This document shows positions 4,351-17,232 of a DNA stretch of 21,311 nt, piece by piece (positions within the stretch are counted from its first letter, which is position 1; each line of letters starts with the position of its first letter). The notes beneath the pieces were generated by a model. That model had not been told where the DNA came from. It was given only the letters and a program-made list of their open reading frames with translations, and did not search any database. This DNA is from a virus. Position numbers and translations under genes: made by a program. The stretch is from positions 1-21,311 of IMG/VR virus record IMGVR_UViG_3300002141_000013; one strand, written 5' to 3'.

Positions 4351-4655
4351 TAACACTAATCGAAATAATTTGCTTTTCTGTATTCTTTGCAGAACTGTCA
4401 AATGTACCACAGCAACTGATGTACCTACTTTGTAAGTACAGGATATTATACAAGATAGACATCTACAACAGTCCACAACCACGCAGGTGCAGACCTTTTG
4501 ATTGTGCGATGTGTCTTGCAAGTTGGATAGGATTCGTTTATCAATTAGTAAACTTCACAAATGTATTCCATCTGGTAGCGTACTGCTCTATCTGTTCTGT
4601 GGGTGCAGTCTTACTTATTTGTATCTTAAACAAATTAAAGTCGTTAAACCTATGA
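4347..4655 (+). CDS. Small membrane protein with CRPFDCxxC motif
   Basis: The 102-residue protein has hydrophobic stretches at about residues 3-28, 54-70 and 74-94, so two or three membrane spans are likely. Between the first and second lies CRPFDCAMC (residues 48-56), whose C53 and C56 form a CxxC that could bind metal or form a disulfide. Small membrane proteins with an RPxDCxxC signature recur in phages of Bacteroidota, but I know of no assigned function. It starts at an ATGA overlap with the glycosyltransferase-like gene and ends in an ATGA overlap with the next, so it is co-translated with the cassette. It could anchor the glycosylation enzymes at the membrane or act in lysis or superinfection control; context does not decide. 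Confidence 0.55.
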   Translation: MITLIEIICFSVFFAELSNVPQQLMYLLCKYRILYKIDIYNSPQPRRCRPFDCAMCLASWIGFVYQLVNFTNVFHLVAYCSICSVGAVLLICILNKLKSLNL

Positions 4656-4906
4656 GGTTTTTAATAATTAAAAATACTATGAAATTAAGAGATGACCAGT
4701 ACCAACAATTAGTAAATCACAGGGGAGTGATCAAGATGGTAGCAGAGCAGAAACTAAACGTAAGCAATTCACCACACGACACAATGGCGAGGGTGTGGAT
4801 GCAACTTGGACAAGCACCAGTCAACACCAACTGCAATGCGTGTGTCCTTCAACTTTATGCAGACATAAACAATCTAATGATACAATACGAGAATGGCACA
4901 GATTAA
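4652..4906 (+). CDS. Small conserved phage protein of unknown function
   Basis: The ATG at 4652 overlaps the previous stop (ATGA) and gives 84 residues; an in-frame ATG at 4679 would give 75. I do not recognise a function. The N-terminal half is charged and helical-looking. The C-terminal 39 residues contain APVNTNCNACVLQLYADIN and are repeated exactly at protein level in the ORF ending at 6630. Over that stretch all DNA differences between the copies are synonymous (for example CTT/TTA Leu, GTC/GTG Val), which shows it is a real protein-coding sequence under selection. It overlaps the next small gene by 14 bp. Confidence 0.6.
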   Translation: MRFLIIKNTMKLRDDQYQQLVNHRGVIKMVAEQKLNVSNSPHDTMARVWMQLGQAPVNTNCNACVLQLYADINNLMIQYENGTD

Positions 4907-5012
4907 AGCAACGACAACAAAAAAGAACTTCGGTGTGCGTAAAAAGGGCAGGGCGAAGAAGTCAAAGAACAAACATTGTAGAAAGACAAAACAAACAAGA
5001 GGACAAGGATGA
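4893..5012 (+). CDS. 39-residue Lys/Arg-rich basic protein (copy 1)
   Basis: A short ORF from ATG 4893 to TGA 5012 encodes a very basic peptide containing KNFGVRKKGRAKKSKNK and a single His-Cys pair. Its stop overlaps the ATG of the ParB-like gene (ATGA). The second copy at 6617-6736 encodes an identical protein although eight bases in seven codons differ, all synonymous. That pattern is strong evidence of a real gene. The composition suggests nucleic-acid binding or condensation, but no domain is recognised. It sits just before the ParB/methyltransferase and terminase genes, consistent with a DNA-handling role. Confidence 0.7.
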   Translation: MAQIKATTTKKNFGVRKKGRAKKSKNKHCRKTKQTRGQG

Positions 5013-6148
5013 AAATAGTTAAGGTAAAGATTTCAGAGATAAAGCTCAACGAATCAAATCCACGATTCATCAAGGATGACAAGTTTAAGAAGTTGGTGAA
5101 GTCAATCAAAGACCTACCACAAATGCTTGACATCAGACCTATCGTAGTCAACAAAGACATGATGGTGCTTGGTGGTAATATGAGATTGAAAGCATGTGTT
5201 GAAGCAGGACTGGTTGAAGTGCCGATAATCATTGCCGATAATTTAACAAAGGAACAGGAGAAGGAGTTCCTGATAAAAGACAATGTCGGATTTGGGGAAT
5301 GGGATTGGGATATTATCGCAAACGAGTGGAATGAGGTTGAGTTGATAGAGTGGGGGTTGGAGATTCCTTTGGACTTCCAAACAGAACTTGAAGCAGAGGA
5401 AGATGACTTTGATGTTCCAGCAGATGGAATTGAAACCGACATAGTATTAGGGGATTTGTTTGAGATAGGAGAACATAGATTGCTTTGTGGAGATTCAACA
5501 GATAGCGATTCTGTTGCAAAGCTAATGGATGGTCAAAAAGCGGATATGGTGTTTACTGACCCACCTTATGGTGTAGATTACGAAGGTATAAACAATGACG
5601 ATAGAAAAGGATTAGAGGAATTGTTAAGAGGTGCTTTTGGCAATATGATGGTAAGCACTAATAATGGAGGTTCTTTTTATTGTTTCCATTCAGATAAGTG
5701 TTCCGACATTTTTAGTAAAGTTTATCGAGAGTTTTGTCACTTTTCTTCAATGATTATTTGGGTAAAAGAAAGCATAGTATTAAGTCAAACAGATTATCAA
5801 TCTAAACACGAACCTTGTATGTATGGTTGGTTTGATAATGGAACTCATAAATGGTATTCAGACAGAAAACAAGAAAGTGTATGGATTGCTAAAAGCAAAA
5901 GAGAAGAAGGTCACACAACGCCAAAACCAATTGATATAATTACTAAGGCATTAAATAATTCAAGTAAAACAAACCATTTAATACTTGATTTATTTTTAGG
6001 CAGTGGTTCAACAATGGTAGCATCCCACCAACTCAACCGCAAATGTTACGGAATGGAATTAGACCCAAAGTATTGCCAAGTGATTATTGACAGAATGAAG
6101 AAGTTGGATAGCACATTAGTTATTAAAAGAAACGGAATAAATATATGA
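5009..6148 (+). CDS. ParB-like domain fused to a DNA adenine methyltransferase
   Basis: This 379-residue two-domain protein starts at an ATGA overlap. Residues 1-90 form a ParB/Srx-like domain with NESNPR at 14-19 and the GGNMR box at 55-59. After an acidic linker (about 121-145) comes a beta-class DNA methyltransferase with DPPYG at 184-188 and FLGSGST at 329-335. ParB-methylase fusions are common in phages and mobile elements. They are thought to methylate phage DNA, with the ParB-like part perhaps binding or sensing DNA or nucleotide. The methyltransferase core (about 5560-5990) looks more AT-rich than the flanks, which suggests that this segment was exchanged. The ParB part recurs at 6733-7167 with only three residue differences and no methylase. 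Its stop overlaps the next start. Confidence 0.88.
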   Translation: MKIVKVKISEIKLNESNPRFIKDDKFKKLVKSIKDLPQMLDIRPIVVNKDMMVLGGNMRLKACVEAGLVEVPIIIADNLTKEQEKEFLIKDNVGFGEWDWDIIANEWNEVELIEWGLEIPLDFQTELEAEEDDFDVPADGIETDIVLGDLFEIGEHRLLCGDSTDSDSVAKLMDGQKADMVFTDPPYGVDYEGINNDDRKGLEELLRGAFGNMMVSTNNGGSFYCFHSDKCSDIFSKVYREFCHFSSMIIWVKESIVLSQTDYQSKHEPCMYGWFDNGTHKWYSDRKQESVWIAKSKREEGHTTPKPIDIITKALNNSSKTNHLILDLFLGSGSTMVASHQLNRKCYGMELDPKYCQVIIDRMKKLDSTLVIKRNGINI

Positions 6149-6630
6149 GCAACATAACGAAAACGAACACTATAAAGGAGCTTGATTTGAGGCAGTTGGC
6201 AATGGTTGAGGCATTAGAGAAACATCTTGGCATCGTCACTACTGCTTGTAGGCAAGTTGACATCGCAAGGACAACGCATTACGAATGGCTCAAAACAAAT
6301 AAGGCATACAGAAAGCTGTGCAACGACATCGACAATGTAGCACTTGACTTTGCTGAATCTTGTCTGCACAAACAGATAGCAAAGGGCAATCCATTGTCAA
6401 CAATATTCTACCTTAAATGCAAGGCAAAGAAGCGAGGGTACATTGAGCAAAGCACGATAGAGATAAAAGGTAACATGAAATTCAGAGCAGACTTTGGCAC
6501 AAGCAATCTTATAAGGGTGTGGATGCAGTTAGGACAAGCACCAGTCAACACCAACTGCAATGCGTGTGTGTTGCAGCTTTATGCAGACATAAACAATTTA
6601 ATGATACAATACGAGAATGGCACAGATTAA
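6145..6630 (+). CDS. Small terminase-like protein, chimeric copy 1
   Basis: This 161-residue ORF starts at an ATGA overlap. Residues 1-123 look like a phage terminase small subunit. A helix-turn-helix segment (TACRQVDIARTTHYEWLK, about residues 33-50) is followed by a conserved helical region from KAYRK to GTSNLI. At base 6513/6514 the protein changes abruptly into the C-terminal 38 residues of the small protein encoded at 4652-4906. This is the junction of the tandem duplication. The other copy (7157-7603) continues differently after GTSNLI and is followed by the large terminase, so copy 1 is the abnormal one. Whether this fusion is functional, or exists in nature, is open. Confidence 0.7.
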   Translation: MSNITKTNTIKELDLRQLAMVEALEKHLGIVTTACRQVDIARTTHYEWLKTNKAYRKLCNDIDNVALDFAESCLHKQIAKGNPLSTIFYLKCKAKKRGYIEQSTIEIKGNMKFRADFGTSNLIRVWMQLGQAPVNTNCNACVLQLYADINNLMIQYENGTD

Positions 6631-6736
6631 AGCAACGACAACAAAGAAGAATTTCGGTGTGCGTAAAAAGGGCAGGGCGAAGAAGTCTAAAAATAAACAT
6701 TGTCGCAAGACAAAACAAACAAGGGGACAAGGATGA
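6617..6736 (+). CDS. 39-residue Lys/Arg-rich basic protein (copy 2)
   Basis: This copy is the same length as the gene at 4893-5012 and encodes the identical protein with eight synonymous base changes. It overlaps the end of the chimeric ORF before it by 14 bp and the ATG of the ParB-like gene after it (ATGA), exactly as copy 1 does with its own neighbours. The conserved spacing places it in the duplicated block, with an offset of 1724 bp. Confidence 0.7.
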   Translation: MAQIKATTTKKNFGVRKKGRAKKSKNKHCRKTKQTRGQG

Positions 6737-7167
6737 ATATAGTTAAGGTAAAAATATCAGAGATAAAGCTCAACGAATCAAATCCACGATTCATCAAGGA
6801 TGACAAGTTTAAGAAGTTGGTGAAGTCAATCAAAGACCTACCACAGATGCTTGACATCAGACCTATCGTAGTCAACAAAGATATGATGGTACTTGGTGGT
6901 AATATGCGATTGAAAGCATGTGTTGAAGCAGGACTGATTGAAGTGCCGATTATCATTGCCGATAACTTAACAAAGGAACAAGAGAAAGAATTTCTAATTA
7001 AAGACAATGTTGGATTTGGTGAATGGGATTGGGATATGATTGCAAACGAGTGGAATGAGGTTGAGTTAATAGAGTGGGGATTGGAGATTCCAAACTTTGA
7101 CAGCGAAGTAGAAAGTGAAGAAAAAGAAGGACAAGAAACCGATAAATGTATAGTTTGTGGCAAATAA
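6733..7167 (+). CDS. ParB-like domain protein without methyltransferase (copy 2)
   Basis: The start at ATG 6733 matches copy 1; an in-frame upstream ATG at 6700 is rejected because it lies inside the small basic gene and has no counterpart in copy 1. The 144-residue protein is the ParB/Srx-like domain alone. It has GGNMR at 55-59 and differs from copy 1 over the first 120 residues only at K2N, V69I and I102M. After the shared LEIP at about 117-120 it has a short acidic tail ending KCIVCGK instead of the methylase. It may be a natural ParB-only form found in some related phages. A DNA-binding or regulatory role is likely but unproven. Confidence 0.75.
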   Translation: MNIVKVKISEIKLNESNPRFIKDDKFKKLVKSIKDLPQMLDIRPIVVNKDMMVLGGNMRLKACVEAGLIEVPIIIADNLTKEQEKEFLIKDNVGFGEWDWDMIANEWNEVELIEWGLEIPNFDSEVESEEKEGQETDKCIVCGK

Positions 7168-7603
7168 ATTGACAGCAGACAACGTAGATGTTACTGTTAC
7201 ATCAACGGATAACTACACTATTATAGACACAGGCATAAATTTGCAACAACAGGCAATGGTTATGGCATTGGAGAAGTCATTGGGAATAATTACAGCAGCG
7301 TGTCGTGCAGTTGGCATTGATAGGACAACACATTATTCGTGGTTAAAGAAGAACAAGGCATACAGAAAGCTGTGCAACGACATCGACAACGTAGCACTTG
7401 ACTTCGCTGAATCTTGTCTGCACAAACAAATCGCAAAGGGCAATCCATTGTCAACAATCTTCTACCTTAAATGCAAGGCAAAGAAACGAGGGTACATTGA
7501 GCAAAGCACGATAGAGATTAAAGGTAACATGAAATTTAGAGCAGACTTTGGCACAAGCAATCTTATACAATCCCCATCCGAATCAACAGAAGATACACAA
7601 TAG
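7157..7603 (+). CDS. Terminase small subunit-like protein (copy 2, intact)
   Basis: The best start is GTG 7157, overlapping the ParB-like stop by 11 bp; no in-frame ATG exists before residue 30 or so. The 148-residue protein has a variable N-terminus, a helix-turn-helix segment (AACRAVGIDRTTHYSWLK, about residues 50-67) and a C-terminal helical region. From KAYRK to GTSNLI (about 71 residues) it is identical to copy 1 in protein, with about eight synonymous base differences, while the N-terminal part differs at many residues. Small terminases bind the packaging site through the N-terminal HTH and oligomerise through the C-terminal part. The position directly before the large terminase supports the call. 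Confidence 0.7.
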   Translation: MANKLTADNVDVTVTSTDNYTIIDTGINLQQQAMVMALEKSLGIITAACRAVGIDRTTHYSWLKKNKAYRKLCNDIDNVALDFAESCLHKQIAKGNPLSTIFYLKCKAKKRGYIEQSTIEIKGNMKFRADFGTSNLIQSPSESTEDTQ

Positions 7604-11380: not shown

Positions 11381-14152
11381 ATGATAAGGTCAGAGCTTTA
11401 TATTAACAACATTCGTGTTGAACTGAATCAAGAGGTACAGGCATCTATCACCTACCAGATAGCAGACATCCGTATGCCTGACAAGAGGCAAGGCAGTTTC
11501 TCAAAGACTGTTTCATTGCCGGGAAGTCCTACAATCAACAACCTATTTACATCCATCTTTGACCTTAACACATCGGTGCAGACAAGTGGTGTCATTAACT
11601 TTGCTCCTGACTTCAATCCAAATCTCAAAGCATCATTCGTGCTGTTGGTGGAAGGCATTGAGCAGTTTCGTGGTTATATGAAGTTGCAGAACATCACACG
11701 CATACAAGACCAACTTCAACAGGTGATGTATGAGGTGAATCTGTTTGGTGATGTGGCGAGTATATTCGGAGTGATAGGGGATGCGAAGCTCAACGCATTA
11801 GATTTGAGTGCCTACGACCACACTTACAACAAGGCAACACAAATAGCAACATGGAACACAGCGAACATCAATGGTGCAGGGTATGTGTACCCAATGATTA
11901 ATTATGGGGGTATGGGTGTAACAAGTTGGGATGTGAATGATTTCTTTCCTGCTATTTATGTGAAGACATACATCGATGAGATATTTGATGCAGCAGGTTA
12001 TAGTTACACATCAACATTCTTTTCGTCATCTTACTTCAAACATTTAATTGTTCCATTCGCAGGTGATAAGTTAACGATAAGTGCGTTGACTGCCTACCAA
12101 AGAACATTCAAAGCAAACACAAGTGCATTGACAAGTGCTTATGCAGTTTTAGTTTACAATCCAATTTTGTACAACGCAGAAACACTTGATCCATTAAACC
12201 AGTTTAACACATCGACAGGAAAGTTCACCACAGCACAGCGTGGTTTCTATTCATTTTATTCAAGTGGTGTCAGCACATTTACAGCATTTGATGATATTGA
12301 ATACAGACCAAATGCGTTCTATGGATATTCTGCAAATGTAAAGGTTTATCGTTCTGCTGTGTTAATTGCAACGTATGGCATAGGAACTACTGCAACAGGT
12401 GGAGCAAATATAAGTCCGATAACACCAGCAGGAACATTGATTAAAACATTTACTTATCAAGGGTGGACACCTACCTTTGTTTGTGATGTGGGTGATGTGG
12501 TGCAGGTGGAAGTGCGTTCATCTTTTGCACCTACTGATATAAATCCATTAACAGGGTTGCCTGAAAGAGTTACGCAAACCATTTCAGCAAATTCAATTTT
12601 TTTAAATCAAATATCAAACACAGCAATAGTTGATGGTGCGAGTATAACTTTAAACGATACATTACCAATCGACATCAAGCAATCTGACTTCTTGATGTCA
12701 ATTATCAGAATGTTTAATCTATTTGTTGAAACGGACAAGAATGATTCCAACAATTTAATCATTGACACTTATGATTCATTCTATGGTGCAGGAACGACAC
12801 AAGATTGGAGCAAGTTACTTGATGTGTCAAAGCCAGTCATCATAACACCTATGGGTGCATTGGATGCGAGAAGGTACACAGTAAAGTACACGCAAGACAC
12901 AGACTTTTGGAACAAGAAATATTTTGATTCTTATGGTAAAACTTATGGTGAATATAATAAAGACATCACAAATGACTTCTTAAAGAATGAGAATAAGAAT
13001 GAGGTGATATTTGCACCTACACCATCGATAGGCACAACTGCTGTGGATAGAATCATTCCAGAGATTTATCAGTTAGATTCCACAGGACTGCAAACAAAAT
13101 TGCGTAGTAAATTAAGAATCTTATATTATGCAGGAGCAAAGAATACTGTGAATGGATTTACTTATACCAGTTATGTGACAGGCAGCTCATCAGAAATTTA
13201 CTATCCATATGCAAGTCACATTGATGACGCAATCACGCCAACCACAGACTTATCGTTCGGAGTGCCAAATGAAATCTACTATGTGAATCCATACGGACAG
13301 ACTTCGTACACTAACAACAATCTATTCAACCAATATCACAAGTTATTCATTGATGAAATCACAGATGTGAATTCAAAGATAGTGACTGCATTCTTTCGTT
13401 TACAGCCATTAGACATTCTTGTGTTGTCATTCAGAAACAAGATATACATTGATGGACAATACTATCGATTAAATAAAGTCATAGACTACAATCCATTAGT
13501 CGAGGGTGTGACAAAGTGCGAGTTGTTAAAGATAAAGAATGGAGTGCCATTTGTTGAAACAACAGCAGAGCTGACATTCACAAGTGGTGAAAAGTTAGGC
13601 ATCGACAAAGCTCCATCTGCACCAGACAATGTGGGTAGGGGTGATATAGCAGCATCGACAAACAATGTGACAGTAGGTCGTGATAATTACATCAGTCCAT
13701 CTGCACGATATACTCTGGTGAATGGTAGCAACAACTTCGTAGGCAATGATGCTGCGAGTATCAATATCTCTGCGAGTAGTGGTGTGAGTGTGTTGGGTGG
13801 CTTGACAAATGTTACTGTCATCAACACCAACGACATTGTTATTCGTGAATCAAACATCACCTACATCAATGGTGTGCGAATGAGTGGCAGCGACAATATA
13901 TACACAGCAAGTGCAAGTCAAACGATTTCAGCATTAGGAACATGGGAGTGTACATCACCAATGACATTGACATTAGATGTGACATTGTTTAACACAGGCG
14001 ATTCAATAAGGGTAAAGAATGTAGGTGGTGGTGCGACAGTTATCATTGATGGCGGTGGCATCTTGATAGATGGTAGTGCTACACAAACAATGGCTATTGC
14101 TTATGACACATTAGAAATTTATTACAACGGAACAGTTTATTTTATAAGATAA
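11381..14152 (+). CDS. Large tail hub/tail-tip structural protein with C-terminal beta-rich domain
   Basis: The 923-residue protein begins MIRSELYINNIRVELNQEV and continues with a DKRQGSFSKTVSLPGS segment. A similar opening (short beta strands, a Lys/Arg-x-Gly-x-Phe/Tyr-Ser-Lys-T box, then a PG) is found in structural proteins of many Bacteroidota phages thought to form the tail hub or baseplate. From about residue 750 the sequence becomes low in charge and rich in Gly, Ser, Thr, Asn and Val, ending with a SALGTWECTSPMTLTLDV and IIDGGGILIDGS type beta module typical of phage appendage tips. Residues 634-923 are duplicated in the following ORF. A role in host contact is plausible for the C-terminal part. 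Confidence 0.6.
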   Translation: MIRSELYINNIRVELNQEVQASITYQIADIRMPDKRQGSFSKTVSLPGSPTINNLFTSIFDLNTSVQTSGVINFAPDFNPNLKASFVLLVEGIEQFRGYMKLQNITRIQDQLQQVMYEVNLFGDVASIFGVIGDAKLNALDLSAYDHTYNKATQIATWNTANINGAGYVYPMINYGGMGVTSWDVNDFFPAIYVKTYIDEIFDAAGYSYTSTFFSSSYFKHLIVPFAGDKLTISALTAYQRTFKANTSALTSAYAVLVYNPILYNAETLDPLNQFNTSTGKFTTAQRGFYSFYSSGVSTFTAFDDIEYRPNAFYGYSANVKVYRSAVLIATYGIGTTATGGANISPITPAGTLIKTFTYQGWTPTFVCDVGDVVQVEVRSSFAPTDINPLTGLPERVTQTISANSIFLNQISNTAIVDGASITLNDTLPIDIKQSDFLMSIIRMFNLFVETDKNDSNNLIIDTYDSFYGAGTTQDWSKLLDVSKPVIITPMGALDARRYTVKYTQDTDFWNKKYFDSYGKTYGEYNKDITNDFLKNENKNEVIFAPTPSIGTTAVDRIIPEIYQLDSTGLQTKLRSKLRILYYAGAKNTVNGFTYTSYVTGSSSEIYYPYASHIDDAITPTTDLSFGVPNEIYYVNPYGQTSYTNNNLFNQYHKLFIDEITDVNSKIVTAFFRLQPLDILVLSFRNKIYIDGQYYRLNKVIDYNPLVEGVTKCELLKIKNGVPFVETTAELTFTSGEKLGIDKAPSAPDNVGRGDIAASTNNVTVGRDNYISPSARYTLVNGSNNFVGNDAASINISASSGVSVLGGLTNVTVINTNDIVIRESNITYINGVRMSGSDNIYTASASQTISALGTWECTSPMTLTLDVTLFNTGDSIRVKNVGGGATVIIDGGGILIDGSATQTMAIAYDTLEIYYNGTVYFIR

Positions 14153-14242
14153 GAAAATGGCAGACAAGTCAGTATCGATAGATTTAATTATCAAAAGTTC
14201 AGAGGCAGCATCTTCACTTAAAGAGGTGAAGCAATCTTTGAA
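13280..14242 (+). repeat. Tandem duplication 2, copy 1
   Basis: The block covers the C-terminal 290 codons of the large tail protein plus the first 86 bases or so of a tape measure gene. It aligns without any indel to 14244-15206 (offset 964). By eye there are roughly forty base differences, concentrated in the first half. Confidence 0.85.
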
Positions 14243-15116
14243 TTATGTGAATCCATACGGACAGACTTCATACACTAACAACAATCTATTCAACCAATAT
14301 CACAAGTTATTCATTGATGAAATCACAGATGTGAATTCAAAGATAGTGACTGCATTCTTTCGGTTACAGCCATTAGACATTCTTATTTTATCATTCAGAA
14401 ATAAGATTTATATTGATGGACAATATTACAGACTTAACAAAGTCATCGACTACAATCCATTGGTAGATGGTGTGACAAAGTGCGAGTTATTGAAGATAAA
14501 GAACGGAGTGCCATTTGTACAGACAACAAGAGAACTTACATTCACAAGTGGCGAGAAGTTAGGCATCGACAAAGCTCCATCTGCACCAGTCAATGTGGGT
14601 AGGGGTGACATAGCAGCATCGACAAATAATGTGACAGCAGGTCGTGATAATTACATCAGTCCATCGGCACGATACACCCTGGTGAATGGTAGCAACAACT
14701 TTGTAGGCAATGATGCTGCGAGTATTAATATCTCTGCGAGTAGTGGTGTGAGTGTGTTGGGTGGCTTGACAAATGTAACTGTCATCAACACCAACGACAT
14801 TGTTATTCGTGAATCAAACATCACCTACATCAATGGTGTGCGAATGAGTGGCAGCGACAATATATACACAGCAAGTGCAAGTCAAACGATTTCAGCATTA
14901 GGAACATGGGAGTGTACATCGCCAATGACATTGACATTAGATGTGACATTGTTTAACACAGGCGATTCAATAAGGGTAAAGAATGTAGGTGGTGGTGCGA
15001 CAGTTATCATTGATGGCGGTGGCATCTTGATAGATGGTAGTGCTACACAAACAATGGCTATTGCTTATGACACATTAGAAATTTATTACAACGGAACAGT
15101 TTATTTTATAAGATAA
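14157..15116 (+). CDS. Chimeric ORF: tape-measure N-terminus joined to a second copy of the tail C-terminal domain
   Basis: The first 28 residues (MADKSVSIDLIIKSS and on) are the N-terminus of the tape measure protein encoded at 15121. From residue 30 the protein equals residues 634-923 of the large tail protein. The DNA repeat is 964 bp with no indel. Most changed residues fall in the first half of the repeat: V/I, E/D, E/Q, A/R, D/V and V/A replacements. The last 400 bp or so are almost identical. The join lies within codon 14241-14243. The ORF could yield a free copy of the beta-rich domain, but it lacks any normal gene start of its own. It could equally be a chimera product. Confidence 0.6.
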   Translation: MADKSVSIDLIIKSSEAASSLKEVKQSLNYVNPYGQTSYTNNNLFNQYHKLFIDEITDVNSKIVTAFFRLQPLDILILSFRNKIYIDGQYYRLNKVIDYNPLVDGVTKCELLKIKNGVPFVQTTRELTFTSGEKLGIDKAPSAPVNVGRGDIAASTNNVTAGRDNYISPSARYTLVNGSNNFVGNDAASINISASSGVSVLGGLTNVTVINTNDIVIRESNITYINGVRMSGSDNIYTASASQTISALGTWECTSPMTLTLDVTLFNTGDSIRVKNVGGGATVIIDGGGILIDGSATQTMAIAYDTLEIYYNGTVYFIR

Positions 15117-15206
15117 GAAAATGGCAGACAAGTCAGTATCGATAGATTTAATCATTAAGAGTTCAGAGGCAGCATCTTCTTTAAAAGAGGTGAAGCAATC
15201 TTTGAA
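14244..15206 (+). repeat. Tandem duplication 2, copy 2
   Basis: This copy encodes the chimeric 319-residue ORF after its first 29 residues and runs into the intact tape measure gene. The join with copy 1 falls at codon 14241-14243. Both copies carry the same tape measure start with the same GAAAATGG leader, but with synonymous changes in the codons after it. Confidence 0.85.
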
Positions 15207-17232
15207 GGATATTAAAGATGAAATGATAAAGGCAGGGGAAGGCACACCTGCATTTAATAAATTAGCAGCAGCAGCAAGTGAGTTGAAGGACAAAGTTGAC
15301 GATGCAAACGATGCTATCAAAGCAACCAATCCAAACAAGTTTCAGGCATTAGCATCATTCGCAGCAAGTGCAGCAGGTGGCGTTAGTGCAGTTACAGGTG
15401 CTATGGGTTTGTTCGGTGCGCAGTCGGAGGAGGTGACAAAGACACTTGCAAAGGTGCAAAGTGCAATGGCATTAAGTCAGGGACTTGCATCGTTGAGTGA
15501 GATGCCGAAAGCATGGGCATCATTTAAGACATCTGCTGTAAGTGCGTTGAATGCTGTGAAAGCGGGAATAGGTGCGACAGGAATAGGATTGATTGTCATT
15601 GCGCTTGGAACTATCTATGCTTATTGGGATGATATCAAAGCTGTTGTAAGTGGTGTAAGCGAAGAGCAGAAGAAGTTAAATAAATTGAGTGATGAGAAAT
15701 TAAAGGGGAGTCAAAAAGAATTAGATGCGGTAAGCGGACAAGAAAATATATTAAAGTTACAAGGGAAAACAGAAAAAGAAATTTTGCAAATAAAGATTGC
15801 AAAGACAAACGAAACAATTAAAGATGCGGAGATTTCTATCTTACAGGCAGAGCAAACAAAGGCATCACAGATAGAGGCATCAAAAAGAAACAAGCAAATA
15901 TTAGAGGGAATAATAATGTTTGTCACAGCACCATTGCAATTATTAATGGGTGCTATTGACCTTGCAGGAAAAGCGTTTGGTCAAGACTTTGGGTTGAGAG
16001 AAGGTCTTACAAGTGCGGTTGCTAAATTTGTTTTTGATCCAGAGAAAGTTGAAAAGGATGCAAATGAATCTATCATAAAAGCAAAGGAAGGTCTTGCTAA
16101 ATTAAAGAACGATAAGGCAGGTTTTCAGTTAGCAATTAATGCAATAGACAAGACTGCAAACGACAAATCAATAGCAGACGCAAAAGCAAGTTCTGATGAA
16201 AAGATTAAAATAAAAGAAGATGAACTAAAAGCATTAAAAGAATTATCAAATAAGTCTGTCGATGAACAAATAAAGGCAGAGCAAGAAGAAGAAATAAGAT
16301 TAGCAAAAACTGCACAGGAAAGATTAAGAATTCTCTTTGAAAGAGATCAAGCAGAATTAATAGCATTAGGTAAAAAACACCTAACAGAAAGTCAGGAAGA
16401 TATTGATATTAGGAGTTCTGTGCAAACACGATTAAGGTTAAATCAAAGAAAATTCAATGATGAATTAGCGGCGTTAGACAAAACTGATAGAGAAAAGAAA
16501 TTTAACGAAATACTTTCTGATCAAGAGAAAATAATTACAGATTCGCAAACATCATTATCATTAAAGTTAGATGCATTAAATATTGAGAATGAGGCAATAA
16601 AATTAAATCAAGATTTAACTGACGAACAACGAGAAAAGAAAATACAAGAGAACGAAGATAGAAAAGTTGCAATAACCAAAGCAGCAAGACAAGCAGAAGC
16701 AAAGATTGCGATGGACTTGGCTGTCACTTCAATAGCAGGATTGCAAACTTTATCAGATTTGGCATTCGCATCTAAATTATCAAAGACAAAAAAGGGAAGC
16801 GAAGAAGAAGAAAAGTTGATGCGAAAACAATTTAAGGCAAACAAAGCATTGAATCTCTCAACTGCAATCATCAACGCAGCACAGGCACAACTTTCTATCT
16901 TGGCACAATATCCAAAGTTCGATGGTGGATTCGCAATGGTAGCAGCAATGGTTGGTGCAGGGATAACATCATTAGCATCTATTGCAAAAATAGCAGCAAC
17001 ACAATTTGACACTACAAGTGCAGGAGGCAATGAGCCACCACCAAGTTTAAACGCAGCAGCAGCGACAGCAACAAGCAATTCACAACCATCTACATTGCTC
17101 AATCCTGATGGAACGGTAGCTAACAACACAACACCAACACCAACACCGATACAAGTGTATGTGGTGGAATCAGATATTACATCGACACAGACACAGGTGG
17201 CGGTGGTACAAAATCAAATGAATTTTCACTAA
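15121..17232 (+). CDS. Tail tape measure protein
   Basis: The 703-residue, mostly helical protein has an Ala/Lys/Glu-rich coiled-coil body and hydrophobic segments at about residues 149-168 (GIGATGIGLIVIALGTIYAY), 264-285 and 600-625. This is typical of tape measure proteins, which set tail length and help DNA pass the cell envelope. The C-terminus has a Pro/Thr stretch and then IQVYVVESDITSTQTQV, an ending I recall from tape measures of Bacteroidota phages. The length is modest, so the tail should be fairly short if the usual length-to-tail relation holds. The first 28 residues are also present at 14157-14240. It follows the tail assembly chaperone by several genes. Confidence 0.85.
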   Translation: MADKSVSIDLIIKSSEAASSLKEVKQSLKDIKDEMIKAGEGTPAFNKLAAAASELKDKVDDANDAIKATNPNKFQALASFAASAAGGVSAVTGAMGLFGAQSEEVTKTLAKVQSAMALSQGLASLSEMPKAWASFKTSAVSALNAVKAGIGATGIGLIVIALGTIYAYWDDIKAVVSGVSEEQKKLNKLSDEKLKGSQKELDAVSGQENILKLQGKTEKEILQIKIAKTNETIKDAEISILQAEQTKASQIEASKRNKQILEGIIMFVTAPLQLLMGAIDLAGKAFGQDFGLREGLTSAVAKFVFDPEKVEKDANESIIKAKEGLAKLKNDKAGFQLAINAIDKTANDKSIADAKASSDEKIKIKEDELKALKELSNKSVDEQIKAEQEEEIRLAKTAQERLRILFERDQAELIALGKKHLTESQEDIDIRSSVQTRLRLNQRKFNDELAALDKTDREKKFNEILSDQEKIITDSQTSLSLKLDALNIENEAIKLNQDLTDEQREKKIQENEDRKVAITKAARQAEAKIAMDLAVTSIAGLQTLSDLAFASKLSKTKKGSEEEEKLMRKQFKANKALNLSTAIINAAQAQLSILAQYPKFDGGFAMVAAMVGAGITSLASIAKIAATQFDTTSAGGNEPPPSLNAAAATATSNSQPSTLLNPDGTVANNTTPTPTPIQVYVVESDITSTQTQVAVVQNQMNFH

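Follow-up and report, generated by a model that had tools for sequence, protein, structure and literature searches.

A join of two strains, most likely made in assembly, probably underlies a tandem repeat at the tail and tape measure genes of a phage contig

A tandem repeat at the boundary between the tail protein and tape measure genes of a phage raises the question whether the phage has gained a second, chimeric tail protein or whether two versions of one locus stand end to end in its record. The record in question is a virus contig of 21,311 bases, analysed here over its whole length (the window); the genes, copies and joins described below for its two repeated regions lie on its + strand. 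Self-comparison reported a single gap-free direct repeat at this locus, 13280-14251 against 14244-15215, with 94.8% identity over 972 nt. The final few columns of this match are due to chance, and the true repeat is 13280-14242 against 14244-15206, that is 963 nt with 47 differences, a period of 964 and no indel, which agrees with what the sequence-only reading had described. The large tail protein gene (11381-14152) is intact and encodes 923 aa, with a C1q/TNF-like domain at residues 235-416 and the recurring part at residues 634-923. Copy 1 of the unit (13280-14242) consists of tail residues 634-923 and the stop, a 4-nt spacer and the first 28 tape measure codons, and copy 2 (14244-15206) is a different population haplotype. 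As the unit spans the 3′ end of the tail gene and the start of the tape measure gene, its second copy yields a 319-aa ORF (14157-15116) ahead of the intact tape measure gene. In this ORF, which is read from the duplicated start region of the tape measure gene, tape measure residues 1-28 and a single N precede tail residues 634-923. Both this chimeric reading frame and the position behind it of the sole intact tape measure gene (15121-17232, 703 aa) were as claimed before.

The two copies differ in 37 codons, 31 of them synonymously and 6 non-synonymously. The clustering of changes in the first half of the unit, which had been noted earlier, was confirmed: 36 of the 37 changed codons lie before 13815, all 6 non-synonymous ones lie before 13675, and the 29 differences found in the densest 200-bp stretch were equalled in none of 5000 permutations. 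Along four consecutive stretches of the unit the copies are 99.2, 85.6, 95.3 and 99.7% identical, and at 13814-14188 they share 99.7% of positions, compared with 96.3% for the nearest relative. The relatives also differ unevenly along the unit; leaving aside near-identical pairs (for example L002/L003 and L009/L010), none is as close as the copies are in their last stretch. Local exchange between strains may account for the uneven divergence, and so may exchange between the copies. Partial homogenisation within a single genome, which had been suggested for it, is possible but not needed as an explanation, while the other suggestions made at the time, a second recombination and a chimera that is inert or artefactual, are compatible with the data.

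Single-copy relatives provide information on what the copies are to each other. Among nine such relatives both bases were found at 31 of the 47 differing sites (25 of 47 with seven of the nine, gapped matches being dropped); a third-position transition would meet such a site with a chance of 0.27 (p 3e-8). The other 16 sites are private, 8 for each copy, and in the second stretch of the unit the nearest relative is L004 for copy 1 and L002/L003 for copy 2. Because most differing sites are polymorphisms common to the single-copy relatives, we conclude that the copies are alleles of one locus and not paralogues, that is, two population haplotypes rather than a duplicated gene that later drifted.

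The relatives themselves carry the locus once. The whole tail unit is single-copy in all eight close-relative contigs that hold it, a ninth (L010) ends within the unit and has one partial copy, and this outcome is the one that had been named earlier, together with single-copy reads, as refuting the duplication. The conserved core of the unit was found in one place in 80 of 80 wider loci, which represent 80 of the 407 relatives found and include at least three contigs already counted. Direct repeats of at least 150 bp were detected in none of 138 loci and in none of 80 further loci, sets that include several loci from the same contigs and are thus not all independent; a direct repeat of 134 bp, below this limit, is present in the unrelated locus L015. 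One relative of 34,985 bp (G006, loci L027 and L007) has one copy of each of the regions treated here. Its record is classed linear, and because its ends overlap by 136 bp at 99.3% it may be a complete genome of about 34.85 kb. G006 is without the stretch between window positions 521 and 1189, where the window has a gene (518-1177) that resembles, by eye, a DNA methyltransferase gene. In a distant relative (L049, 4248-8464) the tape measure gene is located upstream of the tail protein gene, opposite to the order in the window. The phages collection contained no match to the DNA at 12500-16500 or to the tail protein, and the terminase matched there only below 60% identity. A scan of genome_contigs with alignment A1 returned 33 pattern matches and no relative, and hence no host was found.

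A further jump back, comparable to the one in the tail region, occurs at 6513/6514 of the contig and was not mentioned in the sequence-only reading. Here 4790-5367 recurs at 6514-7091 with 93.4% identity, and 6185-6513 recurs at 7239-7567 with 84.8% identity. The first copy (4790-6513) holds the end of an ORF at 4502-4906, a ParB-methyltransferase gene (5009-6148) and terS type 1 (6145-6513), and the second (6514-7567) holds a ParB-only gene (6700-7167), which is without the methyltransferase domain, and terS type 2 (7157-7603). The join is blunt and in frame and fuses terS type 1 to the end of the upstream ORF 4502-4906, giving an ORF at 6145-6630. Each arrangement is found by itself in relatives, the ParB-methyltransferase with terS type 1 in L069 and the ParB-only gene with terS type 2 in L060, L062, L063 and L067. 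Both alleles occur among relatives at 29 of 38 and at 41 of 50 differing sites, so that these copies, too, are alleles of one locus. In terS, ten relatives were split between the types: L069-L071 match the first copy at 40-41 of the 50 sites, and the other seven match the second at 32-41. A single terS hit was obtained in 78 of 80 loci, and in the remaining two a second, weak hit (43-44%) falls in an upstream ORF whose end is HNH-like. Inspection by eye of L061 (148-639) and L068 (1435-1929) showed, directly upstream of terS, an ORF that starts with a terS-like helix-turn-helix and ends in an HNH-like part. The contigs of L006, L008 and L009 all start at a homologous place just inside terS (window 7450-7453). 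Terminal redundancy, considered because G006 closes near terS with its 136-bp overlap, was rejected, since the terS copies are two alleles with 84.8% identity. Degenerate pattern searches of viral_contigs, in which records very near the window may be omitted, gave no hits for this join and four chance hits for the join in the tail region, none of which aligned with the window; the same join was thus found in no independent contig of this collection.

The two joins have features in common. Useful microhomology is absent at both, and the downstream one (14242-14244) is blunt as well, with tape measure bases followed by a single T at 14243 and then by tail sequence. This T matches neither parent context, as the position before the tail sequence is C in 8 of 8 relatives and the tape measure gene has G or A. 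Residue 634, at the breakpoint, falls within a loop (631-643) that is modelled with low confidence in the predicted tail protein, and the stretch around it aligns on both sides in distant relatives.

We consider it probable that the contig combines pieces of at least two co-occurring strains of one phage, joined most likely as false heterotype duplications of assembly. According to this explanation the sequence of one strain would stop at 6513/6514 and at 14242/14244, and that of another would start about 1-1.7 kb further back in the common gene order. Since each switch of strain would involve a jump back, each overlap would appear twice, as a tandem 'duplication' with two alleles as its copies, and a chimeric ORF would arise at each join that would not exist as a gene and would have no action. 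Two cases in this contig against none in the 138 and 80 loci make a common cause likelier than two rare events. The repeats, the alleles, the single-copy relatives, the blunt joins and their number are observed; from these we infer assembly, rather than a phage, as the most likely place of joining. False heterotype duplications are described as a class of assembly error that results in chimeric genes (PMC9516828), and chimeric contigs are known from virome assembly (PMC5610896). As that class implies, the relatives are single-copy (8/8 whole units, 80/80 wider loci, 78/80 for terS). The likeness to the published cases is that both alleles of a divergent region are adjacent in one haploid sequence and that false chimeric genes are found at the joins, there ALDH2/ACAD10. 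Those cases concern vertebrate genomes in diploid assemblies, where in most instances a gap or a read-depth gap separates the copies (PMC9516828), whereas here we are dealing with a viral contig without N.

Three observations argue against joining in assembly. There is no N in the window, both chimeric ORFs are in frame, for which the probability by chance is 1 in 9, and the near-identity of 13814-14188 would also follow from exchange between copies within a real genome. Assemblers based on k-mers normally do not join ends without shared sequence, and in view of the missing N and the missing shared sequence at the joins this explanation must assume a spanning read or a gap-fill step.

The same observations favor real unequal (illegitimate) recombination between two co-infecting strains, to which we assign a substantial minority chance. 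Blunt offset crossovers would then have left two recent tandem allelic duplications that are probably inert and, as nothing is lost with them, tolerated. The copies are indeed different alleles, the tail gene, the tape measure gene and terS are each retained intact, and the tail copies are near-identical toward their 3′ end, which is what exchange between copies would produce. However, this requires two events in one contig of 21 kb and none in the related loci examined, and it is established that repeats of this length are expected to be lost through homologous recombination. A precedent does exist in Enterococcus phage EfV12-phi1, in whose tail fibre gene long reads showed an in-frame tandem duplication of 1.8 kb (PMC6365445). 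Both are large in-frame direct duplications in a phage tail gene region, but in the published one, from a laboratory lineage, the copies are parts of a single gene instead of alleles from two strains, and it is backed by coverage, PCR and long reads (PMC6365445). The repeat in the window, in contrast, crosses a gene boundary, consists of two different alleles and has a similar case elsewhere in the same contig. We regard as highly improbable the further reading that the joins are real, that the phage has two in-frame allelic duplications derived from co-infection, and that the tape measure start drives a second, truncated tail variant with a gp9-like end, so that one virion could display two versions of a tail part.

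The sequence-only reading had raised a duplicated, possibly receptor-facing module that might offer a second variant for host contact. A selected module of this kind, in which the tape measure start signal gives rise to the chimeric ORF and the C-terminal domain of this ORF serves as an extra part for tail or fibre docking or for host contact, is in our estimate highly improbable. It would account for the frame being open and for an upstream context shared with the tape measure gene, and the last ~85 residues of the chimera are predicted to fold confidently, matching domains of phage CBA120 TSP4 (Z 11.5, rmsd 1.9, 87 aligned) and T4 gp9 (Z 9.8, rmsd 2.0, 82 aligned). The likeness to these two proteins is a fold match alone, common to the ~85 C-terminal residues of the duplicated stretch; in the model of the chimera, which was built on a shallower alignment, only these residues fold well, the rest is of low confidence and residues 1-61 are below pLDDT 50. 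The predominance of synonymous changes (31 of 37 codons) might hint at selection, but synonymous differences are equally expected of two alleles of an intact gene and are therefore uninformative on selection on the chimera, which is absent from every relative examined. In the predicted model of the tail protein (mean pLDDT 71.6) residues 235-416 (window 12083-12628) resemble C1q/TNF-like domains (best Z 14.0, rmsd 2.5, 125 aligned) and, among phage proteins, for example the central spike of phi812 (Z 13.3, rmsd 3.0, 139 aligned). Among close relatives this domain varies far more than the remainder of the tail protein. Identity to seven close relatives is 25-68% for residues 235-416, compared with 95-99% for 634-718, 63-97% for 719-794 and 81-98% for 795-923; the middle of the duplicated stretch varies in L008 and L009. 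The duplicated stretch is thus not the most variable module, and residues 235-416, which are possibly host-facing, are a better candidate for such a role. As these residues lie outside the repeat, and the repeated part is conserved among most close relatives and present as two haplotypes, we rejected a duplicated receptor-facing domain.

An old tandem duplication that arose within one lineage and was later altered by mutation and, in part, by gene conversion would fit the clustered differences and the near-identical end, but it can hardly be correct and was rejected because most of the copy differences are shared polymorphisms (31 sites, with just 16 of 47 private to one copy), and no relative examined has kept such a duplication.

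The repeat, being two strains' versions of a locus placed end to end, most likely by an assembly error, offers no good evidence of a new host-contact protein. If joining in assembly is indeed the explanation, what look like two gene duplications and two chimeric ORFs in a public virus record are not genes, and the counts of tandem duplications and gene fusions in uncultivated phages would be inflated by records of this kind. Comparing the differences between apparent paralogues with the variation among single-copy relatives is a simple test for such cases and is applicable to any viral contig. If the joins are real, the contig would capture a natural instance of unequal recombination during co-infection by two strains.
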